DNA of 64,000 nucleotides from Bacillus sp. 103mf. GTDB taxonomy: Bacteria; Bacillota; Bacilli; Bacillales; Bacillaceae_G. Under the pieces are notes generated by a model. That model was not told the DNA's origin. It did not search any database and worked only from the letters and a program-made list of their open reading frames with translations. Shown one piece after another: positions 1,152-49,262 of the stretch; the first letter of the stretch is position 1; every line of letters starts with the position of its first letter. The stretch is from NCBI RefSeq assembly GCF_900116295.1, contig NZ_FPAF01000005.1, positions 186,001-250,000 of the forward strand, given 5' to 3'. A program made the translations under genes and the position numbers.

Positions 1152-2063
1152 TTGAAATTACCTTCTTTTGCTTCTATTAAAGAAGTCGGGCCGCGTGATG
1201 GTTTGCAAAATGAAAAGAAAATTGTTGGTACAAAAGATAAAGTGAAATGGATTCATATGCTGGCAGACGCAGGTCTTTCCTATATTGAAGTTTCATCTTT
1301 CGTTCACCCTAAATGGATTCCTGCTTTGGCCGATGCACAAAATGTGTTTGCTGCGCTTGAGCGGAAACCGCACGTTACATATGCAGCTCTCGTTCCAAAT
1401 CAAAATGGTTTGGAACGGGCGCTGTTGCAAGATATAGATGAGGTGAACGTCTTTTTATCTGCTAGTGAAACTCATAATAAGAAAAATATTAATAAATCAA
1501 TTGATGAAGCACTTTCTGTTATTGAAGAGATAACGAAACAATCATTATTTTCTGGGAAAAAGGTACGTGGTTACGTATCAACTGTATTTGGTTGCCCATA
1601 TGAGGGCGAAGTGAACGTTCATACGGTTGATGAACTTTGTAACAAATTGTTTTCATATGGCATTTATGAAGTATCACTTGGGGATACGATCGGGGTGGCA
1701 AATCCAGCGCAAGTAGAGCGTGTATTAGAGCACTTACTCCCAAAATATGATTCTTCTAAGTTTGCGATGCATTTCCATAACACGTACGGCATGGCACTTG
1801 CTAATGTAGTAAAGTCATTGGAATGCGGTGTTACAACTTTTGATAGTTCATGCGGTGGTCTTGGCGGATGCCCGTATGCACCAGGTGCGTCTGGGAACGT
1901 TGCAACAAATGATTTAGTTCACATGCTTCATAAACTGGGTGTACAAACAAATGTAAATGAAGAAAAGCTATTACAAGCAACAAAATTTATCCAAAGCAAG
2001 CTAGGTACGCAGATTCCGAGTCATGTGTACCGCGCTTTGCAACATAAAACAGTGAGTAGGTGA
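1152..2063 (+). CDS. yngG: Hydroxymethylglutaryl-CoA lyase
   Basis: 303 residues of the DRE-TIM aldolase family. Near the N-terminus is the EVGPRDGLQNE motif that carries the catalytic Arg-Asp pair; the metal-binding HFHNTYG stretch and the GLGGCPYAPGASGN loop with the catalytic cysteine are all present. The enzyme cleaves HMG-CoA to acetyl-CoA and acetoacetate, the last step of leucine breakdown. Translation starts at TTG, placed about 10 bases after a purine-rich AACGGGGTG stretch; no better ATG lies before the DRE motif. It sits 21 bp after the carrier gene and 4 bp before the enoyl-CoA hydratase, as part of one operon. Confidence 0.93.
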   Translation: MKLPSFASIKEVGPRDGLQNEKKIVGTKDKVKWIHMLADAGLSYIEVSSFVHPKWIPALADAQNVFAALERKPHVTYAALVPNQNGLERALLQDIDEVNVFLSASETHNKKNINKSIDEALSVIEEITKQSLFSGKKVRGYVSTVFGCPYEGEVNVHTVDELCNKLFSYGIYEVSLGDTIGVANPAQVERVLEHLLPKYDSSKFAMHFHNTYGMALANVVKSLECGVTTFDSSCGGLGGCPYAPGASGNVATNDLVHMLHKLGVQTNVNEEKLLQATKFIQSKLGTQIPSHVYRALQHKTVSR

Positions 2064-2067
2064 TCCC

Positions 2068-2856
2068 ATGTTACAGCTGCAAAATATTTCAGTTGATTAC
2101 GTAACACCTCATATCGTGAAAGTGACATTAAATCGTGAAGGGCAAGCAAATGCTTTATCACTTGCTCTTTTAGAAGAACTACAAGAAACACTAAGTCGTA
2201 TTAACGAAGAAAACGATGTCCGTGTCGTAATGATTACAGGGGCAGGGGTAAAAGCATTTTGTGCAGGGGCAGATTTAAAAGAACGTGCCAATATGAACGA
2301 AGAACAAGTGCGTGATGCAGTTGGAATGATTCGCTCTACTATGGATATGGTAGAAGAATTATCACAACCTGTTCTTGCAGTTATCAATGGAATTGCGCTT
2401 GGCGGCGGTACAGAATTAAGTCTTGCTTGTGATATTCGAATCGCTTCGGAAACAGCAAGTCTTGGTTTAACAGAAACTTCGCTTGCAATTATTCCAGGAG
2501 CTGGCGGGACGCAGCGTCTCCCGCGTTTAATTGGAATGGGACGCGCAAAAGAATTAATTTATACAGCAAGACGTATTTCGGCTGTAGAAGCAAAGGAATA
2601 CGGACTTGTTGAATATGTTACTTCTGCTGAAGAATTAGAAGAAAAAGCAATTGAAATTGCCAAGCAAATTGCAGCGAACGGTCCAATTGCAGTTCGCCGT
2701 GCGAAAGAAGCAATTACAAATGGGATGCAAGTAGACTTGCAGACAGGTTTACAAATGGAAAAGCAAGCGTACGAAGGTGTTATTCATACGAAAGACCGCT
2801 TAGAAGGATTACAAGCATTTCGCGAAAAACGGAAGCCGATTTATAAGGGGGAATGA
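2068..2856 (+). CDS. yngF: Enoyl-CoA hydratase/isomerase family (probable methylglutaconyl-CoA hydratase)
   Basis: 262 residues of the crotonase superfamily. The oxyanion-hole segments are AFCAGADLKE and GIALGGGTELSLACD, followed by LPRLIGMGRAKELI and the C-terminal GLVEYV region. In this operon it most plausibly hydrates 3-methylglutaconyl-CoA to HMG-CoA, between the carboxylase and the lyase. It starts 4 bp after the lyase stop. Its TGA overlaps the first of two possible ATGs of the next gene, suggesting translational coupling. Substrate assignment is by context only. Confidence 0.88.
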   Translation: MLQLQNISVDYVTPHIVKVTLNREGQANALSLALLEELQETLSRINEENDVRVVMITGAGVKAFCAGADLKERANMNEEQVRDAVGMIRSTMDMVEELSQPVLAVINGIALGGGTELSLACDIRIASETASLGLTETSLAIIPGAGGTQRLPRLIGMGRAKELIYTARRISAVEAKEYGLVEYVTSAEELEEKAIEIAKQIAANGPIAVRRAKEAITNGMQVDLQTGLQMEKQAYEGVIHTKDRLEGLQAFREKRKPIYKGE

Positions 2857-2858
2857 AT

Positions 2859-4400
2859 ATGCTAGATCAAAAACAACAATCTCGTACATTAGAAGAGCGT
2901 GTAGAAACGATAAAGCAAGGCGGTGCACCGAAATATCATGAGCAAAATACAGCAAAAGGAAAACTATTTGTTCGTGAGCGTCTTGCGCTTTTGTTTGATA
3001 ACGGTGAGTACGTAGAAGATGCATTATTTGCAAACTGTGAACAAGAAGGACTGCCTGCGGATGGAGTTGTTACTGCAACTGGTAAAGTAAATGGACGCAC
3101 TGTTTGTGTAATGGCAAATGATTCTACTGTAAAAGCAGGATCATGGGGGTCTCGTACAGTAGAAAAAATTTTACGTATTCAAGAAACAGCTGAAAAATTA
3201 CGTGTACCACTTTTTTATCTTGTCGATTCCGCTGGCGCACGTATTACAGATCAAGTTGAAATGTTTCCAGGCAGACGCGGGGCAGGGCGCATTTTTTATA
3301 ACCAAGTGAAATTATCAGGAAAGGTGCCGCAAATTTGTTTACTATTTGGTCCATCTGCTGCAGGCGGTGCATACATTCCTGCTTTCTGTGACGTTGTGAT
3401 GATGGTCGAAGGAAATGCATCTATGTATCTTGGTTCGCCTCGTATGGCTGAAATGGTCATCGGTGAAAAAGTGACATTAGAAGAGATGGGCGGAGCACGT
3501 ATGCACTGCTCTGTATCTGGATGTGGAGATGTACTTTGCAAAACAGAAGAAGATGCCATTTCAAAAGCACGTCAATATATTTCTTACTTTCCAAGCAACT
3601 ATTTAGAAAAAGCTCCAATGACAGAACCTCAAGAACCGAAAGAATTCGAAAAAACATTAGAACAAATTATCCCAGAAAACCAAAATGCACCTTTTAATAT
3701 GCACGATTTAATTAAACGTGTAATTGATGAAGACTCTTTCTTTGAAGTGAAAAAGTTATTTGCACAAGAACTTATTACTGGATTTGCACGTATTAATGGT
3801 ATGCCAATTGGAATTATTGCGAATCAGCCTCGTATGAAAGGCGGCGTATTATTCCATGACTCTGCTGATAAAGCAGCGAAATTTATTACACTATGCGATG
3901 CTTACCACATTCCGCTTTTATTCTTAGCTGATGTACCAGGCTTTATGATTGGTACGAAGGTAGAGCGAGCTGGTATTATTCGTCACGGTGCGAAAATGAT
4001 TTCCGCTATGAGCGAAGCAACTGTGCCGAAAATTTCTATCGTTGTAAGAAAAGCATACGGTGCTGGTTTATATGCGATGGCAGGCCCAGCATTTGAACCT
4101 GATTGCTGCCTTGCTCTTCCGACAGCTTCAATTGCGGTAATGGGACCAGAAGCAGCGGTAAACGCAGTGTATGCAAATAAAATTGCAGCGCTACCAGAAG
4201 AAGAGCGCCAGGGCTTTATCGCGCAAAAACGTGAAGAGTATAAGCAAGATATTGATATTTATCGTCTTGCATCAGAAATGGTTATTGATGGTATTGTTCA
4301 TCCAAACCAATTACGCACTGAATTAAAGCAACGTTTTGATATGTATATGAGTAAATATCAAGTATTTACAGATCGTAAACATCCAGTTTATCCAGTATAA
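2859..4400 (+). CDS. yngE: Acyl-CoA carboxylase, carboxyltransferase subunit (methylcrotonyl-/propionyl-CoA type)
   Basis: About 513 residues with the two crotonase-like halves of the carboxyltransferase beta family. The N-terminal half shows VDSAGARI and GPSAAGGAY; the C-terminal half shows MKGGVLFHDSADKAAKF, LADVPGFMIG and the YGAGLYAMAGPAF segment. It transfers CO2 from carboxybiotin to an acyl-CoA. ATGs lie at 2853 and 2859; the AAGGGGG ribosome site at 2846-2851 is better spaced for 2859, which I chose. This is the last gene of the tightly spaced run beginning before the window. Confidence 0.93.
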   Translation: MLDQKQQSRTLEERVETIKQGGAPKYHEQNTAKGKLFVRERLALLFDNGEYVEDALFANCEQEGLPADGVVTATGKVNGRTVCVMANDSTVKAGSWGSRTVEKILRIQETAEKLRVPLFYLVDSAGARITDQVEMFPGRRGAGRIFYNQVKLSGKVPQICLLFGPSAAGGAYIPAFCDVVMMVEGNASMYLGSPRMAEMVIGEKVTLEEMGGARMHCSVSGCGDVLCKTEEDAISKARQYISYFPSNYLEKAPMTEPQEPKEFEKTLEQIIPENQNAPFNMHDLIKRVIDEDSFFEVKKLFAQELITGFARINGMPIGIIANQPRMKGGVLFHDSADKAAKFITLCDAYHIPLLFLADVPGFMIGTKVERAGIIRHGAKMISAMSEATVPKISIVVRKAYGAGLYAMAGPAFEPDCCLALPTASIAVMGPEAAVNAVYANKIAALPEEERQGFIAQKREEYKQDIDIYRLASEMVIDGIVHPNQLRTELKQRFDMYMSKYQVFTDRKHPVYPV

Positions 4401-4664
4401 AAATGAAGTAACTACTCAGTCACTTTATGAAAAAAGGAAGAAAAGCATTTTTTTTAATGGTTGAGAGGGACTGGCTATGTATAGTAGCGGTCAGGGCCTC
4501 TTTCTGCCACGTGCGGTGCGAAAACAAAGAGAGAAAACAAGTGCAGGTCACTTTTGTTCTGCATAGCAGTGACTTATATGTTGAAACATCAAAATAGATT
4601 TATATATTAGTGAGAGCGCCCTGTTAAAGGGCTTTCCTTTTCAAAACAGAAGGAGGGACAAATA
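4401..4664 (+). promoter_or_regulatory. Intergenic leader with several potential stem-loops
   Basis: 264 bp without a plausible gene. It contains an AGAGGGACTGGC stretch near 4466 that recalls the start of a SAM-I riboswitch core, a pairing between GGTCACT and AGTGACT around 4546-4574, and a GCCCT/AGGGC stem near 4619-4632 followed by a short T-rich tract just before the ribosome site of the next gene. The layout would suit an attenuator-like leader, but the remaining SAM-I conserved parts are not convincing, so I do not name a class. Confidence 0.3.
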
Positions 4665-6608
4665 GTGAAGCAAGCAGTTTGGTTTCCGGCCGAGGAATAT
4701 AAAGCAAACACACGCTTATATCAATGGATGCAATCGCTTGGTTATGATGATTATGAAACATTTTATGAAAAGTCTATTGAAGATCCAGCGTGGTTTTGGG
4801 AAGCAGCAGAGCGTGCTGTAGGTTATCAATGGATGCGACCATATACAGAAGTGTTAGACTTAGCAAATGGTATGCCATTTGCTAAGTGGTATGTCGATGG
4901 AACTTGCAATGTTGTAGAATCTGCACTATCTCGTTGGATTGCAGAAGATGATACGAAAACAAAGCAGGCGCTCATTTGGGAAGGTGAAAACGGTACATCA
5001 AAATCATTTACATATGAGGAACTAGACAATTGGGTAAGCCGCGTTGCGAATGGTTTAAAACATTTAGGAATTGAAAAAGGAGATCGTGTAACCATTTACA
5101 TGCCAATGATTCCAGAAACAGTAGTTGCCATGTTAGCTGTTATGAAAATTGGCGCAATCATTTCTCCTATTTTCTCAGGATTTGCTTCAGATGCAGTGAT
5201 GACGCGTGTACAAGCAGCAGGCTCTAAAATGATTATTACCGCAGATGGATTTGCGCGCCGCGGTAAAACAGTTTCTTTAAAAGAAGAAGTAGATAAAGCA
5301 TGTGAGCATTGTCCAAGTGTTGAAAAAGTCGTAATTGTTCGTCATGCGGGGAATGAGTTTACACCGCAGGATTATGATATTTCATGGAGTGTTCTTGAAA
5401 AAGACAAACCATTTACACACGCAGAAGAAATGAAAAGCGACGACCCGCTTATGCTTATTTATACATCTGGTACAACAGGTAAGCCGAAAGGAACGGTGCA
5501 TACGCATGCAGGATTTCCGTTAAAAGCAGCATTTGATGCTGGTTTTGGTATGAATGTCAAACAAGGCGACCGTGTGTTATGGATTACTGATATGGGCTGG
5601 ATGATGGGGCCGTTTTTACTATTTGGTTCTCTTCTTAACGGTGCGACAATGGTTATATATGAAGGTGTTCCTGATTATCCAGAAACAGATCGTTTATGGG
5701 AAATGGTTGATCGTTATGAAGTAACGCACCTTGGTATTTCACCAACGTTAATTCGTTCATTAATGGCAAAAGGCGATTCATGGGTGAAGAAGCATTCCTT
5801 GCATAGTTTGGAAGTAATCGGTTCAACAGGTGAGCCATGGAATCCAGATCCATGGATGTGGCTCTTTGAAACAGTTTGCAAAGGAAGGGTCCCAATTTGT
5901 AACTACTCTGGTGGTACTGAAATTTCTGGTGGTATTTTTGGAAATGTCCTCATTAAACCAATCGCGCCAATTAGTTTTAATGCATCGCTACCAGGAATGG
6001 CCGCTGTTGTATTAGATGAAAACGGTGTACCAGTTCAAAATGAGGTCGGAGAATTATGTCTAGAAAAGCCATGGGTCGGTATGACGAAGAGCTTCTGGGA
6101 AGAAGACGATCGGTATGTAAATACATACTGGTCTCGTTTTGAAAACAAATGGGTGCACGGTGACTGGGTGTTATATGATGGAGAACAATATATCATCACA
6201 GGTCGTTCTGATGATACGTTAAATATTGCTGGAAAACGCATTGGACCTGCGGAGTATGAATCCATTCTTGTAAAACACCATGATGTCATCGAAGCTGGGG
6301 CAATTGGAGTTCCAGATGAAGTGAAAGGCGAAGTGTGTCATTGTTTTGTTGTGTTACGTGAGGGTACTGTGTTTACACCAGAACTGAAAAAAGAGTTATT
6401 AAGTCTAGTAAACTCTCATATTGGGAAAGCATTGTGCCCGAAAGATATTCATGCTGTCGAAGATCTGCCGAAAACACGTAACTCAAAAGTGATGCGCCGC
6501 GTTATAAAAGCTGCGTATTTAGGAAAAGAACTTGGAGATTTATCTTCACTTGTGAATCCTGAGGTTGTGGCATATATTCAAGGGATACAGTCTCAGAAAC
6601 AACGGTGA
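4665..6608 (+). CDS. AMP-forming acyl-CoA synthetase, AcsA-like
   Basis: 647 residues of the ANL adenylating superfamily. The P-loop-like motif YTSGTTGKPKG (about residues 268-278) binds ATP, GDWVLYDGEQY leads into the hinge, and PKTRNSKVMRR near the C-terminus contains the lysine that is usually catalytic and regulated by acetylation. The N-terminal region resembles acetyl-CoA synthetase. It activates a short-chain acid; in this context acetoacetate, propionate or isovalerate are candidates, and the substrate cannot be read from sequence. Translation starts at GTG, seven bases after AGGAGGG. It is separated from the carboxylase operon by a 264-bp leader, so it may be regulated separately. 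Confidence 0.87.
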   Translation: MKQAVWFPAEEYKANTRLYQWMQSLGYDDYETFYEKSIEDPAWFWEAAERAVGYQWMRPYTEVLDLANGMPFAKWYVDGTCNVVESALSRWIAEDDTKTKQALIWEGENGTSKSFTYEELDNWVSRVANGLKHLGIEKGDRVTIYMPMIPETVVAMLAVMKIGAIISPIFSGFASDAVMTRVQAAGSKMIITADGFARRGKTVSLKEEVDKACEHCPSVEKVVIVRHAGNEFTPQDYDISWSVLEKDKPFTHAEEMKSDDPLMLIYTSGTTGKPKGTVHTHAGFPLKAAFDAGFGMNVKQGDRVLWITDMGWMMGPFLLFGSLLNGATMVIYEGVPDYPETDRLWEMVDRYEVTHLGISPTLIRSLMAKGDSWVKKHSLHSLEVIGSTGEPWNPDPWMWLFETVCKGRVPICNYSGGTEISGGIFGNVLIKPIAPISFNASLPGMAAVVLDENGVPVQNEVGELCLEKPWVGMTKSFWEEDDRYVNTYWSRFENKWVHGDWVLYDGEQYIITGRSDDTLNIAGKRIGPAEYESILVKHHDVIEAGAIGVPDEVKGEVCHCFVVLREGTVFTPELKKELLSLVNSHIGKALCPKDIHAVEDLPKTRNSKVMRRVIKAAYLGKELGDLSSLVNPEVVAYIQGIQSQKQR

Positions 6609-26294: not shown

Positions 26295-26672
26295 AGGTTT
26301 ACTCCATTCAAACTAATTTATAAATAAAGCATAGCCTGCTTTTTTCCAGAAATAAATTTGTTATTGATTATTAAAACCTATAAGTATATCTAATTGAATA
26401 ACGATAATATAACGGATGTGAAATAAAGTTCCATTTTACCATCAATATTTTTAAAAAATTTTATTATTCACGAACAATTTATACACAAAAGATATTAAGA
26501 AAGAGTTAGAATTTAATGGGAAGTGTTTATAATTATTAATAATTTTCTTGGTTAAAATTTTAAAAATGAGCCGTTCTGTTGGAATATGTAGATTTTAGTT
26601 TTTTAAACTCTTGACCTATAAAATAGAAAGTAGATAAGCGTATAAATATTTTAATGGATTAGGAGGATTTAA
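26295..26672. other. Gene-free AT-rich stretch
   Basis: 378 bp between divergent genes. No coding signal or repeat; it must hold the promoters for both neighbours. TTGACCTATAAAATAGAAAGTAG near 26611 is the only promoter-like text I can point to. Confidence 0.5.
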
Positions 26673-27332
26673 ATGATAGACTTTCAAAAATTATCGACTT
26701 TCGAATTTTTCGAATTATTTCCTGCGGTTGATGAAGCTGAGATTGAAAAGACTGAAGAACGAATGGGGTTAATAATACCGAACTCTTATAAACAGTTGCT
26801 ACAGTACACGAATGGATTTGTAACTGACGAGGGTGTGATTATATTTGTTATTGATATAATTAATGAAAGAAATACAACATATGAGGTACGTGAATATGCG
26901 GAAGGGTATATTGCTGTAGGAAGTAAAGGTGGAGGAAAGTTTCTATTAATGGAAGCAAACGAGGACGCAACTGAATTATTACAGGTTGATTCTGGGGTCA
27001 TGAATCCGGCTTTTGCTACCACGGTAAGCGAGAATTTTGTAAAGTGGATAAATGATGGAGCGATAGATGTTGAATGTGTGAATGAAAAGCAAGAAATGCA
27101 CAAAGAAAAGCTTTGCAATCTTATATTAATTCGTTCGCCAATCGGAGGAGTTGTAGATTTAAAGAAGATACAGGAGGTATTTCACATTAAAAGAGGGTTA
27201 TTTGATTTGTTAAAGGGATCAAAACAGTTACCATTTGTGTTGATGAAGGACATTCCTGTTGAGTTGGCTATAAAAAACTTAAAACAGTTAGGTGAATTAG
27301 AGGAGATATTAAAAATCTCTAGTGTTGATTAA
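26673..27332 (+). CDS. SMI1/KNR4 (SUKH) family protein with C-terminal extension
   Basis: 219 residues. The first about 130 residues carry the SUKH pattern: EIEKTEERMGLIIPNSYKQLLQYTNGF, then strand GYIAVGSKGGGKFLLME and a terminal helix FVKWINDG. A second region (about 145-215) with CNLILIRSPIGGVVDLKKIQ looks like a ribosomal L7/L12-like or similar small domain attached to the immunity fold. Ribosome site AGGAGG. SUKH proteins neutralise nuclease and other toxins; no toxin is adjacent. Confidence 0.78.
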   Translation: MIDFQKLSTFEFFELFPAVDEAEIEKTEERMGLIIPNSYKQLLQYTNGFVTDEGVIIFVIDIINERNTTYEVREYAEGYIAVGSKGGGKFLLMEANEDATELLQVDSGVMNPAFATTVSENFVKWINDGAIDVECVNEKQEMHKEKLCNLILIRSPIGGVVDLKKIQEVFHIKRGLFDLLKGSKQLPFVLMKDIPVELAIKNLKQLGELEEILKISSVD

Positions 27333-27452
27333 CTAATTATATGTGGAAAAATTAAAATGGATTCATATAGTTTGTTGTTAACGATGAAGCGTGTTGTGTC
27401 GTTAAATTAAAAGGTTGTATTGCCAAAATACGTTTAGGAGAAAGGAGATTTT

Positions 27453-27872
27453 ATGGGATTAAAAAAGTGGCTTTTTTCAGATGAATCTTTAGATGAACAA
27501 GAAATTATTGAAGTTGAAAGGTTATTTGGATTTAAACTTCCTGATGATTATAAACAATGTATAACGAAAAATAATGGAGGGTTTCCGGAGCCCAATACCT
27601 TTGATTGTGATGATGGAAGAATTGAAGCTGTTTTCAATGATTTGATTAGTTTTACCGATGAAGATTTAAATATAAAAATGTTTTCTGAATTTTTATCACA
27701 AAAATTATTTCCTTTTGCTAGAGATCCTTTTGGAAATTTACTATGTTTTGACTATAATGACAATGCGGACTCGCCTAAAGTTGTTTTTTATAATTGCGAA
27801 GAAACTGGAAGTACATTAATTACCCCAATATGTCAGTCATTTACAGATTTATTAGATAGATTATATTCTTAA
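27453..27872 (+). CDS. SMI1/KNR4 (SUKH) family protein
   Basis: 139 residues, complete SUKH domain: EIIEVERLFGFKLPDDYKQC near the start, NNGGFPEPNTF, then FPFARDPFGNLLCFDY and VVFYNCEETG, and a final helix SFTDLLDRLY. A likely immunity protein, 120 bp after another SUKH gene on the same strand, with its own AGGAGAAAGGAG site. The pair probably descends from toxin cassettes whose toxin genes were lost. Confidence 0.82.
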   Translation: MGLKKWLFSDESLDEQEIIEVERLFGFKLPDDYKQCITKNNGGFPEPNTFDCDDGRIEAVFNDLISFTDEDLNIKMFSEFLSQKLFPFARDPFGNLLCFDYNDNADSPKVVFYNCEETGSTLITPICQSFTDLLDRLYS

Positions 27873-28070
27873 AAATAAAACGAACACTAACAAAAAGAAA
27901 AGTGGGCGAAATCAAATTTAATCCTAAAAGCTCTCTTCGTAATAGATAGATTAAAAAAATAAAACTCTATCTACTATAAAGAGATTATTTTAGGTTGAAA
28001 AGAATTTACTGAATTAAATCTTGAAACGGTATCGGCATAAATATTTGATTTTTCGAAAGGTTATAATAAT

Positions 28071-28169
28071 GTAGATGGATTTTTGTAAATAGTAGATAAC
28101 GTAACGATTAAAGAATTTGGCTATGATAGTGTTGAAGGGTTTAAGAAAGTAGTAGGACACATAGATTAG
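28071..28169 (+). pseudogene. C-terminal remnant of an unrecognised gene
   Basis: 33 codons: VDGFL-stop-IVDNVTIKEFGYDSVEGF, KKVVGHID-stop. A coding-like composition with one internal stop and no start. Family not recognised; it sits directly downstream of the SUKH pair. Confidence 0.4.
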
Positions 28170-28229
28170 TATTTAAACATGTCACATTACAAGCGTGTAT
28201 AAAAAAATAAATGGTAGGAGGGAAAAGGT

Positions 28230-28694
28230 TTGCAAAAACCATTTCATCATTTAGCAAGGGGAATCTTTATAAAAGATAATAAAATATTACTTGCACAAGC
28301 CAGAGGGTATACAAATACTTTTTTACCAGGCGGTCACATTGAATTTGGGGAGAGTGCAAAAGATGCATTGATAAGAGAGATTCAAGAAGAATTAGGAATT
28401 AGATGTACAGTAAATAAATTTCTTGGATTAGTTGAACACAAATGGGAGAAAAATGGAGAATTACATTGCGAAATAAATCAAGTATTTGAGGTTAATGGTA
28501 ATGAATTACCAAATAATTTAAAGTCTAGCGAATCACATCTTAAGTTTTTTTGGTGTGATGAAAAAGATTTGGATGATAGGAATTTACAACCTTATCCATT
28601 TAGGAAACTGATTAAAGGTTACTTAAACGGAAGAAAAGACGTTTGGTGGGAGAGTTCATTAAATTCAGAAATTGATGATTCAAACAGAAACTAA
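28230..28694 (+). CDS. Nudix hydrolase
   Basis: 154 residues with Nudix box GGHIEFGESAKDALIREI plus QEELGI (about residues 35-57). It starts at TTG 28230, following GGAGGGAAAAGG; the first downstream Met lies too far into the domain. Substrate unknown. Terminator downstream. Confidence 0.85.
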   Translation: MQKPFHHLARGIFIKDNKILLAQARGYTNTFLPGGHIEFGESAKDALIREIQEELGIRCTVNKFLGLVEHKWEKNGELHCEINQVFEVNGNELPNNLKSSESHLKFFWCDEKDLDDRNLQPYPFRKLIKGYLNGRKDVWWESSLNSEIDDSNRN

Positions 28695-28740
28695 ACTTTT
28701 TTATTCTACTAATGAGTACTTTAGTTTAATAAAATGAGAG

Positions 28741-28788
28741 AGGATAGCACATAATAGTCATGTATAATATGTGTTATCCTTTGTTTTT
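28741..28788 (+). terminator. Terminator downstream of the Nudix gene
   Basis: AGGATAGCACATA (28741-28753) pairs with TATGTGTTATCCT (28768-28780), followed by TTGTTTTT. Confidence 0.8.
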
Positions 28789-28940
28789 CGAAATTTTTTA
28801 TAATTCAGGTCTTGATAACGTACAATTTTCTTTTTTGATTTGTACTTACATCCCAGAGTGGCCCCTCATACTTTGAATCGTTTTCGTCTCCCTCATATAG
28901 TTACATCAGAACCAATTAGTCCTATATAGTCAACTACTCA

Positions 28941-29187
28941 CCACTTAAACGCTAACACGTTTTGAAGTGGGGGCTTGAAAAAAGCTCTGGTTGTCTAGCC
29001 TCAGTCTTTTGTGGACTTCGTTCGTAGGTTGCATACCCAAGAATGATTCCCTAGTTCTTAGCTCTATGGTGGCTCTGTAACAGTTCTGATTGGGAAGGAA
29101 CGGTCAACCACAAGCCTTCTTATACAAGAAGTTGCCAACACCTACAAACATTGGCGAAGGGAAACAAACTCTTAGGAGGGACAAAAC
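28941..29187 (+). ncRNA. Predicted omega-RNA (guide RNA scaffold) of IscB
   Basis: About 250 bp of non-coding sequence directly upstream of iscB, where IscB omega-RNAs are encoded. It is more structured and GC-rich than neighbouring intergenic DNA. Visible pairings include the left-end hairpin, GGTTG near 28989 with CAACC near 29104, and CTTCTT/AAGAAG at 29117-29133. In known systems the guide is the short segment at the RNA's 5' end, copied from DNA flanking the element's left end (here roughly 28918-28938). RNA boundaries are inferred. Confidence 0.7.
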
Positions 29188-30435
29188 ATGCGTGTATTTG
29201 TCAAGAATTTAAGAGGAGAACCGCTTATGCCTTGTAGTTCCCGTAAAGCCAGGCTTCTTCTCAAGCAAGGAAAAGCAATGATTGTCGGATATACTCCGTT
29301 TACAATCCAATTACAATATGCTACTGGAGAAACGGTACAACCCGTTACAATTGGTGTTGATAGTGGTGCAAAGCATATCGGCATTGCGATTACCACTGAA
29401 GACAAAGTGTTAGCAAAAGGAACCATTGAGTTACGTCAGGACGTCAAAGAAAACCTTACACTGAGAGCCACATTACGCAGAGGTAGAAGACAGCGAAAAA
29501 CAAGGTATCGCAAAGCACGTTTCCTCAATCGGAAAAAGAAAGAGGGATGGTTACCGCCATCGATTCAAAGCAGAGTGGATAACCAAGTTCATTGGATTGA
29601 AACTTTTTGTTCATTATTACCATCTCCAAAAGTGATTGTCGAAGTAGGAAAATTTGATGTACAAAAGCTAAAAAATCCCGATATACAAGGAACAGAATAT
29701 CAACAAGGAGATGCTTTTGGTTTTTGGAATACAAGATATTACGTATTTGCGAGAGATAACTATACGTGTCAAATTTGTAAGAAGAAAGGTGGCATTTTGC
29801 ATACGCATCATATTATCGAACGCTGCAAAGGTGGTTCAGATATGGAAGATAATCTTGTCACAGTACATGATGAATGCCATCAAAAATTTCATCAAGGGAA
29901 ACTCAAACACACTTTCAAGAAACCAAAACAATATAAAGAGACTGCTTTTATGAATATATTGCGGTTACAAATCATGAATCATTTAGATTGTGACATTACG
30001 TATGGCAGTTACACCACGCTAAAACGAAGAGGGTTAGATTTATCCAAAACACATGTAAATGACGCAATTGCGATTACCAATCCAACACACATACAAGAAT
30101 ATGATCAAAGCGGTGAATTTTGCATCAAGCAATTTAGAAAGAAAAAACGTTCCCTGCATGAAGCAACCGCAAGAAAAGGGAGGGAAACAAAGAATACAAA
30201 TGTAAAACGGAACAAGAAAAACACACCATATGTAGATGGAATCTATTTAGGTGATAAAGTGAAAGTATTTGGACAAGTAGGATTTGTGGCAGGGTTTACA
30301 GGGAAAATGGTATACGTACAAGATATACATGGACAATATATACAAAATCCGGCTAAATCTTATAAACAAGTGAAGGTATCAGATATAGAACGTATACACC
30401 ATACGAACAATTGGAAGTTCTTACAAATCAGTTAG
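29188..30435 (+). CDS. iscB: IscB RNA-guided DNA endonuclease
   Basis: 415 residues with the full IscB layout: N-terminal PLMP domain (EPLMPCSSRKARLLLKQGKA, residues 11-30), RuvC-I with Asp58 in IGVDSGAKHIGIAI, an arginine-rich bridge helix (about 92-118), RuvC-II with Glu152 in VIVEVGKFD, an inserted HNH domain (CQIC at 194-197, catalytic HTHH at 205-208, Asn222), RuvC-III with His289 and Asp292 in HVNDAIAI, then a C-terminal basic and beta-rich region. All catalytic residues are present, so nuclease activity is predicted. IscB is the ancestor-like relative of Cas9; the cognate RNA lies upstream. Ribosome site AGGAGG before ATG 29188. Confidence 0.93.
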   Translation: MRVFVKNLRGEPLMPCSSRKARLLLKQGKAMIVGYTPFTIQLQYATGETVQPVTIGVDSGAKHIGIAITTEDKVLAKGTIELRQDVKENLTLRATLRRGRRQRKTRYRKARFLNRKKKEGWLPPSIQSRVDNQVHWIETFCSLLPSPKVIVEVGKFDVQKLKNPDIQGTEYQQGDAFGFWNTRYYVFARDNYTCQICKKKGGILHTHHIIERCKGGSDMEDNLVTVHDECHQKFHQGKLKHTFKKPKQYKETAFMNILRLQIMNHLDCDITYGSYTTLKRRGLDLSKTHVNDAIAITNPTHIQEYDQSGEFCIKQFRKKKRSLHEATARKGRETKNTNVKRNKKNTPYVDGIYLGDKVKVFGQVGFVAGFTGKMVYVQDIHGQYIQNPAKSYKQVKVSDIERIHHTNNWKFLQIS

Positions 30436-30523
30436 GCTATACCTAACCGAAATTCATCCCCACCTTATCACTGGGCTCTTGCCTGTCACGCACTTGAAGA
30501 TGGGGACTTCTTTCGGAAATACG

Positions 30524-30859
30524 TTAAAAATTGCAATACCCGATGAGTGGACTTGATGAACCTATTCTAAGAAAATAATCAGGAATATAACCATAATCTT
30601 GATGACCACCATAACCATGATCATCAGCATAGGCCCAAACCTTACTTCCCATGTAATTCTCACTATTTACGTAGCAGTATAGGGAAATGGTATTTCCAGC
30701 TGGAATTATTTCTTTTTTACTGCTTATTGCTGGTATAGAATACATATTCAAATCCTTTTTTACTTGATAAAAATCTGCATATGTTACTGTTTGATTAGAA
30801 AATAAAATAGATCCAGATATTGCAAGTGAGAAAACAGAAAATAACACTTTTTTAAACAT
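30524..30859 (-). CDS. Secreted protein of unknown function, 111 residues
   Basis: Signal peptide MFKKVLFSVFSLAISGSILF with a cleavage region NQTVTYA. The mature part has SH3-like hints (SLYCYVNSENYMGSKVWAYA, GYIPDYFLRIG) and one pair of cysteines. GGAGGAG precedes the ATG. It begins outside the right end of the IscB element, so it is probably the original neighbour. No family recognised. Confidence 0.7.
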   Translation of the reverse strand: MFKKVLFSVFSLAISGSILFSNQTVTYADFYQVKKDLNMYSIPAISSKKEIIPAGNTISLYCYVNSENYMGSKVWAYADDHGYGGHQDYGYIPDYFLRIGSSSPLIGYCNF

Positions 30860-31466
30860 ATGTCTCCTCCTATTAATAAATTTGTAATGCCTACAGAAAA
30901 TCTCCTCATGTTTATAATGATGTTATAGATTGCTTGGTATGCATTAGGGAAGAACTCTTACGAGGTACAAGAATTAATAGTTTTTATACTTTAACATACA
31001 TGCTCTATAGTCCAAAATAGACCAAAGAATTCAATTCTATTTTTCACACAAGGAGAAACAATAAGATGATAACCATCATATTTGTATCATATTATATTAA
31101 CTGTAAACTATTAACATTAAAACCAGAATAATAACAATATCCAGATTGAGAAAATTAATACAAAATGAAAACGTTTGTTACTTTGCCCCTGGTTACAGCA
31201 ATGCTGGTACTGAGCCTATTTGTAACATAGTTCATAACTTAAGGAAATTTTAAATCATGAGATCATTAAGCTGGGTAAAGAAATAATGAAGAATGGAACT
31301 ATTGTCAACAGAACAGTTGATAGGACTACAGCTTATCAGTTACCTTGATGAAGGAGGTAACATTACTCATTTCCATCCAGTATTTCCAGAATAGTTACTT
31401 AGTATAGAAAAAGGTAATTTTTACTCCGTAAGTGCTCCTACAAGTGATGCAGGTGGTAAAGCAACA
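30860..31466. other. Stretch without an intact gene
   Basis: About 600 bp of mixed, decayed sequence. Short coding-like pieces occur near 31287-31350 (KNGTIVNRTVDRTTAYQLP) and 31402-31466 (SIEKGNFYSVSAPTSDAGGK, leading into the IS66-type fragment), but no gene can be named. Confidence 0.45.
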
Positions 31467-31590
31467 ATGATATCAGAGATCGTGATTGAAAAAGTATATC
31501 TTGCACAATGGGCAACAGATTTACGTAAATCAATTGATGGACTAGCGGCTATTGTAAAAGGGGTTTGGATAATTTTGTCGAATGGATTTA
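31467..31590 (+). pseudogene. IS66-family accessory gene (TnpB/Orf2) N-terminal remnant
   Basis: The codons give EIVIEKVYLAQWATDLRKS followed by IDGLAAIVK, the hallmark N-terminus of IS66 Orf2 ('KVYLA-x-G-x-TDLRKSIDGLA'). The homology stops after about 40 codons; the rest of the element is absent. A further coding-like piece near 31637-31710 (KLDEALKALLSRCRIPKKMK) is unassigned. Confidence 0.75.
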
Positions 31591-31792
31591 TCTATGAAAA
31601 CAACATTCTCACATTCAAAGTTAGGCGCATGCCAGACGTAAACTTGATGAAGCCTTGAAGGCTTTACTGTCTAGATGCAGAATACCGAAAAAAATGAAGC
31701 AAACAAATAATAACTCTAAAATATATGGAAAAAGTTATTTGTTTTGGAATTGTTTTACGTTTACAAAAATACTATACGAGGAGATGTAATAC

Positions 31793-32497
31793 GTGAAAAA
31801 GTTAATCGAATTCAAAAAAGTAACGAAAGAATACAAAATAGGAGAAGTGTCAATCAAGGCCCTTGATGGTGTTGATTTTTCCATATTTGAGGGAGAATTC
31901 GTCGTTATCTTGGGTGCAAGCGGTGCCGGTAAAAGTACGATTTTGAATATACTTGGCGGAATGGATACGGCTACCTCAGGTCAAGTGTTTGTTGGTGATC
32001 AAGAAATAACAAGATTCAGCGAAAAAAAGTTAACAGAATATCGTGGTGAGAAAGTTGGCTTTGTATTTCAATTCTATAACTTAATTCCCAATTTAAACGC
32101 TCTAGAAAATGTTGAGTTTGCCACTGAAGTATGTAAAAACCATCTGGATGCTAAAGATATTTTACATAAAGTCGGATTAAAGAATCGTATCAAGAACTTC
32201 CCTTCCCAACTCTCTGGGGGAGAACAACAAAGAGTTGCTATAGCTAGAGCTGTTGCAAAAAATCCTTTACTTTTACTTTGTGATGAACCAACCGGAGCAT
32301 TGGATTATGTTACAGGTAAGTCCGTATTAAAACTTCTTCAAGATTTGAACAAGGAAACGAAAAAATGTGTCGTTTTGGTCACACATAATTCTGCAATTGC
32401 TCCTATGGCTGATAAAATTATTAAGGTTAAAAGCGGAATGATAGAAGGCGTTACGATTAATGATGAAAAACAAAGTGTTGAAGGGATTGAGTGGTAA
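31793..32497 (+). CDS. ABC transporter ATP-binding protein (MacB/LolD type)
   Basis: 234 residues. Walker [10 protein letters not shown] (about residues 41-49), Q-loop VFQFYNLIP, signature [14 protein letters not shown], Walker [14 protein letters not shown] and H-loop VVLVTHN are intact. It powers the FtsX-like permease encoded next. It starts at GTG 31793 after GAGGAG. Its last codons overlap the potential GTG start of the permease, indicating translational coupling. The pair resembles exporters of peptides or antimicrobials rather than importers. Confidence 0.9.
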
Positions 32498-32499
32498 AC

Positions 32500-34824
32500 A
32501 TGAAATTATTTTTAAAATTATTAAGGGATATTAAACAATCTATAGGGCAATTTATAACCTTAGTTTTGGTTATCGCAGTAGGTTCTTTTTTCTATGCGGG
32601 TCTAGTAACTTATAGCAATAATTTGAGTGCGTATACTAAGGCTTACTTTAAAGAACATAATTTAAGTGACTTAAATGTGTATTACAGTCAACTTTCCAAA
32701 TATGATGTAGCTAGTTTAAGCGGAATTGAAGGCATAAATAAAATAGAAGGACGTTATACCTTTGATGCCAAGCAAGCCTTTGAAAATTACAAAACTTCCT
32801 TAAAAATTCATTCGATCCCTGTAAAGAATGGAATAAATACACCTACTATGATTGAGGGGAGTATCCCGTCAAAGAAAGATGAAATCTTATTAGATTCTCG
32901 TTATGCAAAAGAACATCATTATCGTGTCGGTGATCAAATCAGTATAAGTACGAATGAAAGAAATTTTGAGTTTACAATTAGCGGATTGGGTGAGAATGTT
33001 GAATATACAAAAAAGAACGAAATACAAGATCATAAAACCTATGGAGTAGCTTATATTGCTGAAGAGACAATACCTGAAATTGTAGACGGCTTTTACTATA
33101 ATGAAATCATTATTGATGCTAAAGAAGGGTACGACATTGACAAATTAGGTAAATCAATTGAAATACAATCCAAACAACTAACTTATTTGGATCAAGTAAG
33201 TAAAGAACGGACTTTCAATTATTCTAAAATAAGTCAAACGATATATAATAATGATTTAATGAGTAAAGTTATACCTTTAGTTCTTTTTTTGATTGAAGCC
33301 ACTATATTATTTCTTACAATGTCGAGAATTATAGATTCTCAAAGAAATCAAGTAGGAATTATGAAGGCTTTAGGTATAAAAAACAGAAATATCATGCTTC
33401 ATTATATGGGGTATCCTGTGCTGGTAGCCATAATAGGCTCAATTATAGGATGTGTTATTGCTGCTGTCGTATTTGTTCCATTAATAACTGAGTCTAGTGC
33501 AAGGGCCTACTCTCTTCCTAACATTAAATACCCACTTTCTCTTTATTCCATCATTCCTCCCATTATTTTCTCTAGTGCTTTCGGACTCCTATCATGTTAT
33601 TTAAGTGGTAGAACCATATTAAAAGAACGTGCGGCTCAGGCTATGCGTCCTAAACCGCCAAAGAAGATGAAAAAGCTATTTATAGAAAGAGTTCCGGGTC
33701 TATGGAGTCGTATTTCCTACAGCTATAAACTTATTTTGAGAAATATATTTTTAAATAAACAAAAAGCTTTGGCGAGCTCAATTGGTGTTGTTGTAAGCAC
33801 TGTTTTATTGATAACTGCTTTCGGCACTCAAGCAGCCTTGCTAAAAGTAGCTAACCAAATTGAAGATGTTTATACCTATGATTTAAGAGTCGATTATACG
33901 ATGGGGACATCTTCTGATACGATAAAACTACCCTCCGGTATTAAAAATAGTTATTTTTTATCCACTTTTCCTGTTGAATTCATAAAAGATGATGAAAAAG
34001 AAAATGCCACTTTAGTTATTACTGAAAAAGAAAACAATCTCATACATTTCTTTGACGAACATAACAATAAGATATCTTTAGAAAATAATGGTGTGCTGGT
34101 ACCAAAATCTTATGCTGACAAATATCATATTTCAGAAGGGTATATAATCAAAATAAAGTTCACAGCACCAGAGCTTAAAAATAAATCTGTAGATATGAAG
34201 GTTTTAAATATATCTACACAGTATTCGAATCCGTCGTTTTATAGCACACCAGCTTATTTAAAGAACTTTGGCATAGACTACATCCCAAACTCACTTTTAG
34301 TTGAAGCTAATAACTCTACAGATCTTACAAACGTTCGTAACTTCTTTGAACAAGATCATCATGTAAATACAATTGCAGATAAGAATGATCTAAAGAAATC
34401 AGCTCAATATATTTTGAAACAAAACAGTTTTGTATTCATCCTGTTTATCACTTGTGCCGTCATACTCTCCTTTGGCGCCATATATACGATATCTTCCATA
34501 AACATTTATGAAAGGAATCGTGAGCTTGCAACACTTAAGGTATTAGGCTATCAAAAAAATAAAATAAACAGATTAATATTTTTTGAAAACATTATACTAA
34601 CCACATTTGCGGTAATTGTAGCTTTACCGATAAGTGGCTATGTTTATACAATTGTTGTAAAGGCTCTGTCTAGTACCCATCAACAAATACCAGATAAATT
34701 AAATATTTTTATCATGTTAGTTTCTATTATTCTTGCGTTCTTACTTACCATTGTATCTAATTTACTACTTAAGAGAAAAGTTACCAAAATAAATATGATC
34801 GAATCATTAAAAAGTATAGAATAA
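32500..34824 (+). CDS. ABC transporter permease, FtsX/MacB-like
   Basis: About 774 residues. An N-terminal membrane helix (FITLVLVIAVGSFFYAGLV) is followed by a large extracytoplasmic domain, three helices (about 260-370), a linker with AAQAMRPKPPKKMKK, a second helix-domain unit starting near 425, and three C-terminal helices (FVFILFITCAVILSFGAIY onward). This duplicated FtsX arrangement is typical of exporters. Start ATG 32500 is preferred; GTG 32491 overlapping the ATPase gene is an alternative. No regulator gene is linked. Confidence 0.88.
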   Translation: MKLFLKLLRDIKQSIGQFITLVLVIAVGSFFYAGLVTYSNNLSAYTKAYFKEHNLSDLNVYYSQLSKYDVASLSGIEGINKIEGRYTFDAKQAFENYKTSLKIHSIPVKNGINTPTMIEGSIPSKKDEILLDSRYAKEHHYRVGDQISISTNERNFEFTISGLGENVEYTKKNEIQDHKTYGVAYIAEETIPEIVDGFYYNEIIIDAKEGYDIDKLGKSIEIQSKQLTYLDQVSKERTFNYSKISQTIYNNDLMSKVIPLVLFLIEATILFLTMSRIIDSQRNQVGIMKALGIKNRNIMLHYMGYPVLVAIIGSIIGCVIAAVVFVPLITESSARAYSLPNIKYPLSLYSIIPPIIFSSAFGLLSCYLSGRTILKERAAQAMRPKPPKKMKKLFIERVPGLWSRISYSYKLILRNIFLNKQKALASSIGVVVSTVLLITAFGTQAALLKVANQIEDVYTYDLRVDYTMGTSSDTIKLPSGIKNSYFLSTFPVEFIKDDEKENATLVITEKENNLIHFFDEHNNKISLENNGVLVPKSYADKYHISEGYIIKIKFTAPELKNKSVDMKVLNISTQYSNPSFYSTPAYLKNFGIDYIPNSLLVEANNSTDLTNVRNFFEQDHHVNTIADKNDLKKSAQYILKQNSFVFILFITCAVILSFGAIYTISSINIYERNRELATLKVLGYQKNKINRLIFFENIILTTFAVIVALPISGYVYTIVVKALSSTHQQIPDKLNIFIMLVSIILAFLLTIVSNLLLKRKVTKINMIESLKSIE

Positions 34825-49189: not shown

Positions 49190-49262
49190 ATGGAGCACGC
49201 AATTGGTATAGATGTAGGACTAAACAAATATGCTGTTCTTTCCAATGATAAGAAAAGATGTA
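49190..49262 (+). pseudogene. TnpB (IS605 OrfB) RuvC-I fragment
   Basis: MEHAIGIDVGLNKYAVLSND is the RuvC-I segment of TnpB nucleases (IGIDVGLNKYAVLS, with the catalytic Asp). Only about 22 codons remain. Confidence 0.65.

Follow-up and report, generated by a model that had tools for sequence, protein, structure and literature searches.

The iscB locus in this stretch of DNA raises the question of whether a nuclease gene with no transposase attached can still belong to a working mobile element, and how such an element would move and keep its place. Cas9 descends from the IscB group. The original prediction held that positions 28920 to 30522 of the window (the whole 64-kb stretch analysed) contain an intact IscB preceded by an omega-RNA region and flanked by hairpin ends. 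The features on which the argument turns are as follows.

28909 to 28928, plus strand: predicted native guide, 20 nt outside the left end, at the expected 5' end of the omega-RNA
28929 to 28990, plus strand: left terminal hairpin, common to tnpB elements of the IS200/IS605 family, where it lies downstream of tnpB
28929 to 29169, plus strand: omega-RNA scaffold (HEARO, RF02033) located with cmscan, its 5' end coinciding with the left end of the element
29174 to 29180, plus strand: Shine-Dalgarno-like AGGAGGG upstream of iscB, read from the sequence
29188 to 30435, plus strand: iscB, RNA-guided endonuclease family, 415 aa, ATG start, RuvC and HNH residues intact
30440 to 30523, plus strand: right end with a subterminal imperfect hairpin, corresponding, in reverse complement, to the end of IS200/IS605 elements that lies beside tnpA
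30524 to 30528, plus strand: TTAAA, predicted to act as target site of IS200/IS605 and, on the 3' side of the target, as TAM of IscB
30524 to 30859, minus strand: flanking ORF of 111 aa, its stop codon TAA inside the predicted target site

The protein leaves little doubt about its family. The ORF at 29188–30435 runs through 415 codons without stop or frameshift and matches the NCBIfam equivalog NF040563 (guided_IscB) with 363.8 bits (cut-off 175; E 6.8e-109); its score against the Cas9d model NF049971 is only 30.5 bits, far below the cut-off of 375. Pfam recognises RRXRR (4.1e-64) and HNH (PF01844, 2.3e-08), and both an arginine-rich helix and HNH interrupt the RuvC domain. The N-terminal domain, known as PLMP (PMC9755519), is present with LMPC at residues 13–16. 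The seven residues named in the original prediction (D58, E152, H207, H208, N222, H289, and D292) are invariant in all 18 rows of an alignment of IscB-type proteins. Of three solved chains compared, two (11hr and 7xht, OgeuIscB) have identical residues at these positions; the third, the TbaIscB chain 9k30, differs at the positions of D58 and the two histidines and may represent an inactivated construct. The claim of an intact IscB was thus borne out, and neither the alignment nor the comparison with solved chains revealed a substitution of a named residue in the window protein.

IscB chains, such as those of TbaIscB and OgeuIscB, are the solved structures nearest to the window IscB. From the 18-sequence alignment, AlphaFold2 produced a model of moderate quality (pLDDT 75.8, pTM 0.62), whose top Foldseek matches are IscB complexes (best 8csz, E 8e-25). 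The protein is shorter than the 496-aa chain of OgeuIscB, as might be expected of an IsrB-like nickase or RNA-binding variant that has lost its HNH domain and no longer cuts both strands. However, the HNH domain is there (34.5 bits versus 21.4) and H207, H208, and N222 are invariant, which makes such a variant hardly credible. Length differences occur also among the relatives: the IscBs of loci L160 (genome G520) and L162 (G721) carry 21 extra residues after the arginine-rich helix, a stretch absent from the window IscB and nearly all aligned rows, and L070 has two extra residues at the same place.

The RNA partner is equally recognisable. HEARO (RF02033) matches 28929–29169 (241 nt) on the same strand as iscB over the full length of the model (1–211 of 211) with 92.2 bits, above the gathering score of 83 (E 1.8e-17; cmscan against Rfam), and is the sole match at gathering level within the window. 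Several relatives score higher (up to 153.3), and cmscan flags 20 positions as belonging to non-standard pairs. All helices named on the omega-RNA can nevertheless form in the window; the single mismatch is located in the first helix, at one of its eight pairs. Folding energy is unremarkable (z -0.96), with 32 of 200 shuffles folding equally well. The argument from energy was therefore dropped, and the claim of a structured upstream region rests on the covariance model and on covariation.

Covariation was assessed for 55 named pairs in 15 sequences including the window, which were selected among loci matching HEARO, with five rows of the prior alignment omitted. Two-sided changes occur in 38 of the 55 pairs, compared to a mean of 24.1 after shuffling, and none of 500 shuffles reached the observed value; when the structure was slid along the alignment as a control, only 12–17 pairs changed on both sides. 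In total, 83.7% of the cells are paired, a figure favoured by the choice of helices, which were read from those possible in the window and exclude the Rfam pairs that it cannot form; the changes on both sides carry more weight. The helix 28998–29000/29153–29155 is paired in 97.8% of the cells, with two-sided changes in each of its three pairs. Near the 3' part of the RNA, an extra hairpin (29116–29131) has letters in only five of the 15 rows, with 66.7% of their cells paired.

The upstream omega-RNA is therefore real, but the match ends at 29169, short of the predicted 29187, and is followed by the ribosome-binding-like site. Of 20 further IscB loci, 17 match the same model at the gathering score, whereas L001, L004, and L013 gave no match. 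In the order whose genomes were searched, it is found at E ≤ 0.01 in seven of eight IscB loci, five of them above the gathering score; the exception is L186 (genome G669). In this broken element, an IscB fragment corresponding to window residues 32–231 lies in a frame of 303 codons whose start is not IscB-like, about 8.5 kb from an omega-RNA-like stretch.

RNA and gene have been separated by other genes in two of the loci. In L179 (genome G089; 2056–5384), an IS110-family transposase gene (2454–3683, minus strand; Pfam DEDD_Tnp_IS110) splits the omega-RNA from iscB by approximately 1.8 kb. In L180 (G627; 1988–3618), a second, different IscB with RRXRR and HNH domains and a weak HEARO match of its own (2073–2272) has come to lie between the omega-RNA and iscB of another element; the counterpart without this insertion is found at 1908/1909 of L181 (G605), which makes L180 a case of an IscB nested in an IscB. 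A separate candidate, an exchange of RNA and protein modules with G089 (87% identity of the RNA versus 57–58% of the protein), was rejected because other rows are similar: RNA identity far exceeds protein identity in most rows compared (one row, with 10 aligned bases, was unusable). The high identity of the RNA relative to the protein is probably a general constraint.

The limits of the element are best read from a relative. An IscB element of a Lactobacillus sp. MAG (L010) was chosen over another relative, L199, because of the neighbour genes of the latter, which in our reading resemble secretion-associated ones. The flanks of L010 (2178–2670 and 4367–4881) match adjacent bases (1–493 and 494–1001) of the reverse complement of locus L200 in Agrilactobacillus composti (genome G004) with 98% and 94% identity, contiguous to the base. 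This exact empty site places the start of the element at nucleotide 1 of the omega-RNA (L010 position 2671) and its end just before TTGAA, which remains in the empty site. In this relative, insertion thus takes place behind a fixed short target without duplication. The right end is readable in 10 of 13 such loci (not in L008, L015, and L022); it adjoins TTGAN in seven and, shifted by one base, TTAAA in three.

By analogy, the element in the window would span 28929 to about 30523, which shifts the original limits of 28920 and 30522 while leaving the element itself in place. The guide of this copy would then be the flank ending at 28928 (with a presumed length of 20 nt), and TTAAA at 30524–30528 would be its target site and TAM. 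TTAA(A) is present at the right end of most of the relatives compared, and the window motif fits the TAM measured for OrufIscB, NTAAA (PMC13180657). An empty site of the window copy was not found among 397 genomes of one order, where the right flank had no long match, nor did this flank match any of 43 genomes of a nearer family at E ≤ 1e-30. The order is presumably Bacillales, to judge by its position within the class to which Agrilactobacillus belongs and by its IS elements. Near DNA matches to 27500–32500 are absent from plasmids and phages, and the window itself contains only one copy of the element.

Both ends fold as subterminal hairpins of the IS200/IS605 family, in agreement with the predicted hairpin ends, and their kinship became evident from a DNA search with 26600–31790 against the 397 genomes. 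Roughly the last 100 bases before 30530 and the first 50 from 28929 recur in many of them. From these matches, 12 loci (L187–L198) were picked for their right end, whose presence in all of them (77–84% identity to 30440–30523 over 84–101 nt) is thus by choice. Eight of these 12 loci also have the left end (77–82% identity to 28929–28990 over 48–53 nt), 10 contain tnpB or a piece of it, and five contain tnpA or a piece of it. Among the proteins selected for analysis, Pfam identified Y1_Tnp in L189, L193, and L197, and OrfB_IS605 in L187, L189, L193, and L194. A 343-bp MITE-like element in L191 (2408–2750) has both ends of the lineage with neither tnpA, tnpB, nor iscB between them.

The window holds no TnpA detectable by tblastn with one TnpA query, and hence no Y1 transposase of the element's own. 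As to the original remark that nearly all other mobile elements of the window are relics, a search with this TnpA and two TnpBs yielded, besides the absence of TnpA, a TnpB-like scrap of 17 residues at 49196–49246 (plus strand; 82% identity to the TnpB of L194), probably the relic of a tnpB element. Because no TnpA was found in the window and the ends are common to elements with tnpA and tnpB, the IscB element is, as judged from its sequence, a non-autonomous member of the IS200/IS605 lineage, which a Y1 TnpA supplied by another element probably mobilises in trans.

The orientation of tnpB relative to the ends is opposite to that of iscB in all 10 tnpB loci among the 12 examined. This arrangement, seen in one lineage and in chosen loci, permits a tentative reading that we hold to be possible though not the favoured outcome. 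One pair of ends would serve tnpA-tnpB in some elements and iscB in others, the nuclease gene being turned round between them; one strand of the terminal hairpin would provide the 5' part of the IscB omega-RNA and the opposite strand the 3' part of the TnpB guide RNA; and the two nucleases would read the same flank in opposite directions, have a common TAM (TTAAA/TTTAA), and protect donor sites of one kind. If so, in a cell with both nucleases the hairpins of the two guide RNAs would be complementary, and one RNA might disturb the other. Meers et al. 2023 (Nature), on IS605 nucleases and their selfish spread, may already describe the shared ends and the flipped arrangement. No description of a flipped iscB inside tnpB ends was found in the accessible parts of PMC8987985 and PMC9956272.

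The surroundings of the element bear on a different question, whether the host has put the nuclease to its own use. On one side of the element lies a Nudix gene (28230–28694), which is followed by a strong hairpin (28698–28818), a terminator-bearing small repeat or MITE that is single-copy in the window, with parts that are 71–81% identical in several genomes of the order searched. On the other side, the element is located directly behind the stop codon of the ORF at 30524–30859, which ends in TTT TAA. This TAA falls inside the predicted target, so insertion would keep the frame of the gene whole. Neither Pfam nor NCBIfam matches the ORF at E 0.001, and its N-terminus appears, in our reading, signal-peptide-like.

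IscB is encoded in eight of the 397 genomes of the order (E ≤ 1e-60; best identity 58%) and in none of three further genome groups at strict limits (0 of 41 at 1e-60, 0 of 15 at 1e-80, and 0 of 14 at 1e-60). A pattern search of genome_contigs returned 69 loci: the first 26 in the list resemble IscB over long stretches, and most of the remainder are short HNH stretches; the best matches (61–68% identity) are on contigs of metagenome bins. Matches occur also in 78 plasmid records, all below 60% identity, and at 75 loci in viral_contigs, where the best long match has 45–46%.

In G089 (L179 1034–6312) and the near-identical G627 (L180 429–5331) and G605 (L181 254–3620), iscB lies between genes of the UDG family and DUF423. 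The IscBs of G089 and G605/G627 at this place are 47% identical and their neighbours 67–69%, which reflects either long retention or repeated insertion.

Long retention at a conserved place, together with an intact iscB that has no transposase attached, would suit a domesticated IscB that serves host defence or regulation with a guide aimed elsewhere than at its own empty site. The window copy, however, is not at the UDG-DUF423 place but between the Nudix gene and the ORF at 30524–30859, and it has kept full transposon ends with a target-like TTAAA. Moreover, the 20-mer at 28909–28928 has no exact match in viral_contigs, and its last 12, 14, and 16 nt match no second place within the window. 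Taken together, these observations render domestication very unlikely.

Considering protein, RNA, and ends jointly, we regard it as highly probable that 28929 to about 30523 is a non-autonomous IS200/IS605-type element with IscB and omega-RNA that is moved in trans by TnpA and whose IscB cuts the empty donor site. The omega-RNA would start at the transposon end, with the host DNA next to it as guide. Supplied by another element with the same ends, a Y1 TnpA would move the IscB element as single-stranded DNA, and the rejoined flanks left behind would re-create the guide match together with the TAM (TTAAA). IscB would then cut the site that has lost the element, and repair with the sister copy as template would bring the element back. 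Such cutting of the empty donor site after TnpA-driven excision, with repair restoring the element, has been described for TnpB (PMC11870625); its application to the window IscB, which would have to be expressed, cleave DNA, and be mobilised in trans, is made by analogy.

Alternatively, the copy may have died recently, its parts still readable but unexpressed, or unmoved for want of a host TnpA. The window has no TnpA and a single copy of the element, the TnpB-like scrap suggests that related elements there have decayed, and the promoter-like sites in 28600–30700 are at shuffle level (six found versus 6.4 expected); the 20 positions of the omega-RNA in non-standard pairs point the same way. 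By contrast, 415 codons without stop, frameshift, or substitution of a named catalytic residue, helices that can form with one mismatch in the first, and the presence of a Shine-Dalgarno-like site argue against decay. A dead copy is thus unlikely, and the element retained by trans-mobilisation and IscB cleavage is the preferred reading. The original suggestion that this IscB may be functional finds support at the sequence level. Ends in common with tnpA-bearing elements offer a concrete route by which lone copies of iscB could still move, given a host TnpA. Small intact IscBs with a defined RNA, defined ends, and a predicted TAM are also useful for comparison and screening.

The element is a well-preserved example of a known family and not a new kind. 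It resembles the IscB/HEARO systems of OgeuIscB, TbaIscB, and OrufIscB in its PLMP-type start, in a RuvC domain interrupted by the arginine-rich helix and HNH, in the omega-RNA directly upstream whose 5' end is the end of the element, and in the predicted 5' guide and NTAAA-kind TAM. It differs from them by its shorter protein (415 aa; 63–64% identical to the nearest aligned sequences and 57% to the closest copy in the order whose genomes were searched) and by the extra hairpin of its omega-RNA. With IS200/IS605 elements that carry tnpA and tnpB (e.g., L189, L193, and L197), it shares the terminal hairpins (77–84% identical) and the TTAA-like site at the tnpA-side end, whereas it lacks both tnpA and tnpB and carries iscB in the opposite orientation. 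The IscB elements of Agrilactobacillus composti and the related Lactobacillus sp. MAG (L005–L015) differ in having several copies per genome and TTGAN or TTAAA as target. Their IscBs are 48–49% identical to that of the window (four rows aligned), and they have the omega-RNA at the end of the element and the same organisation.
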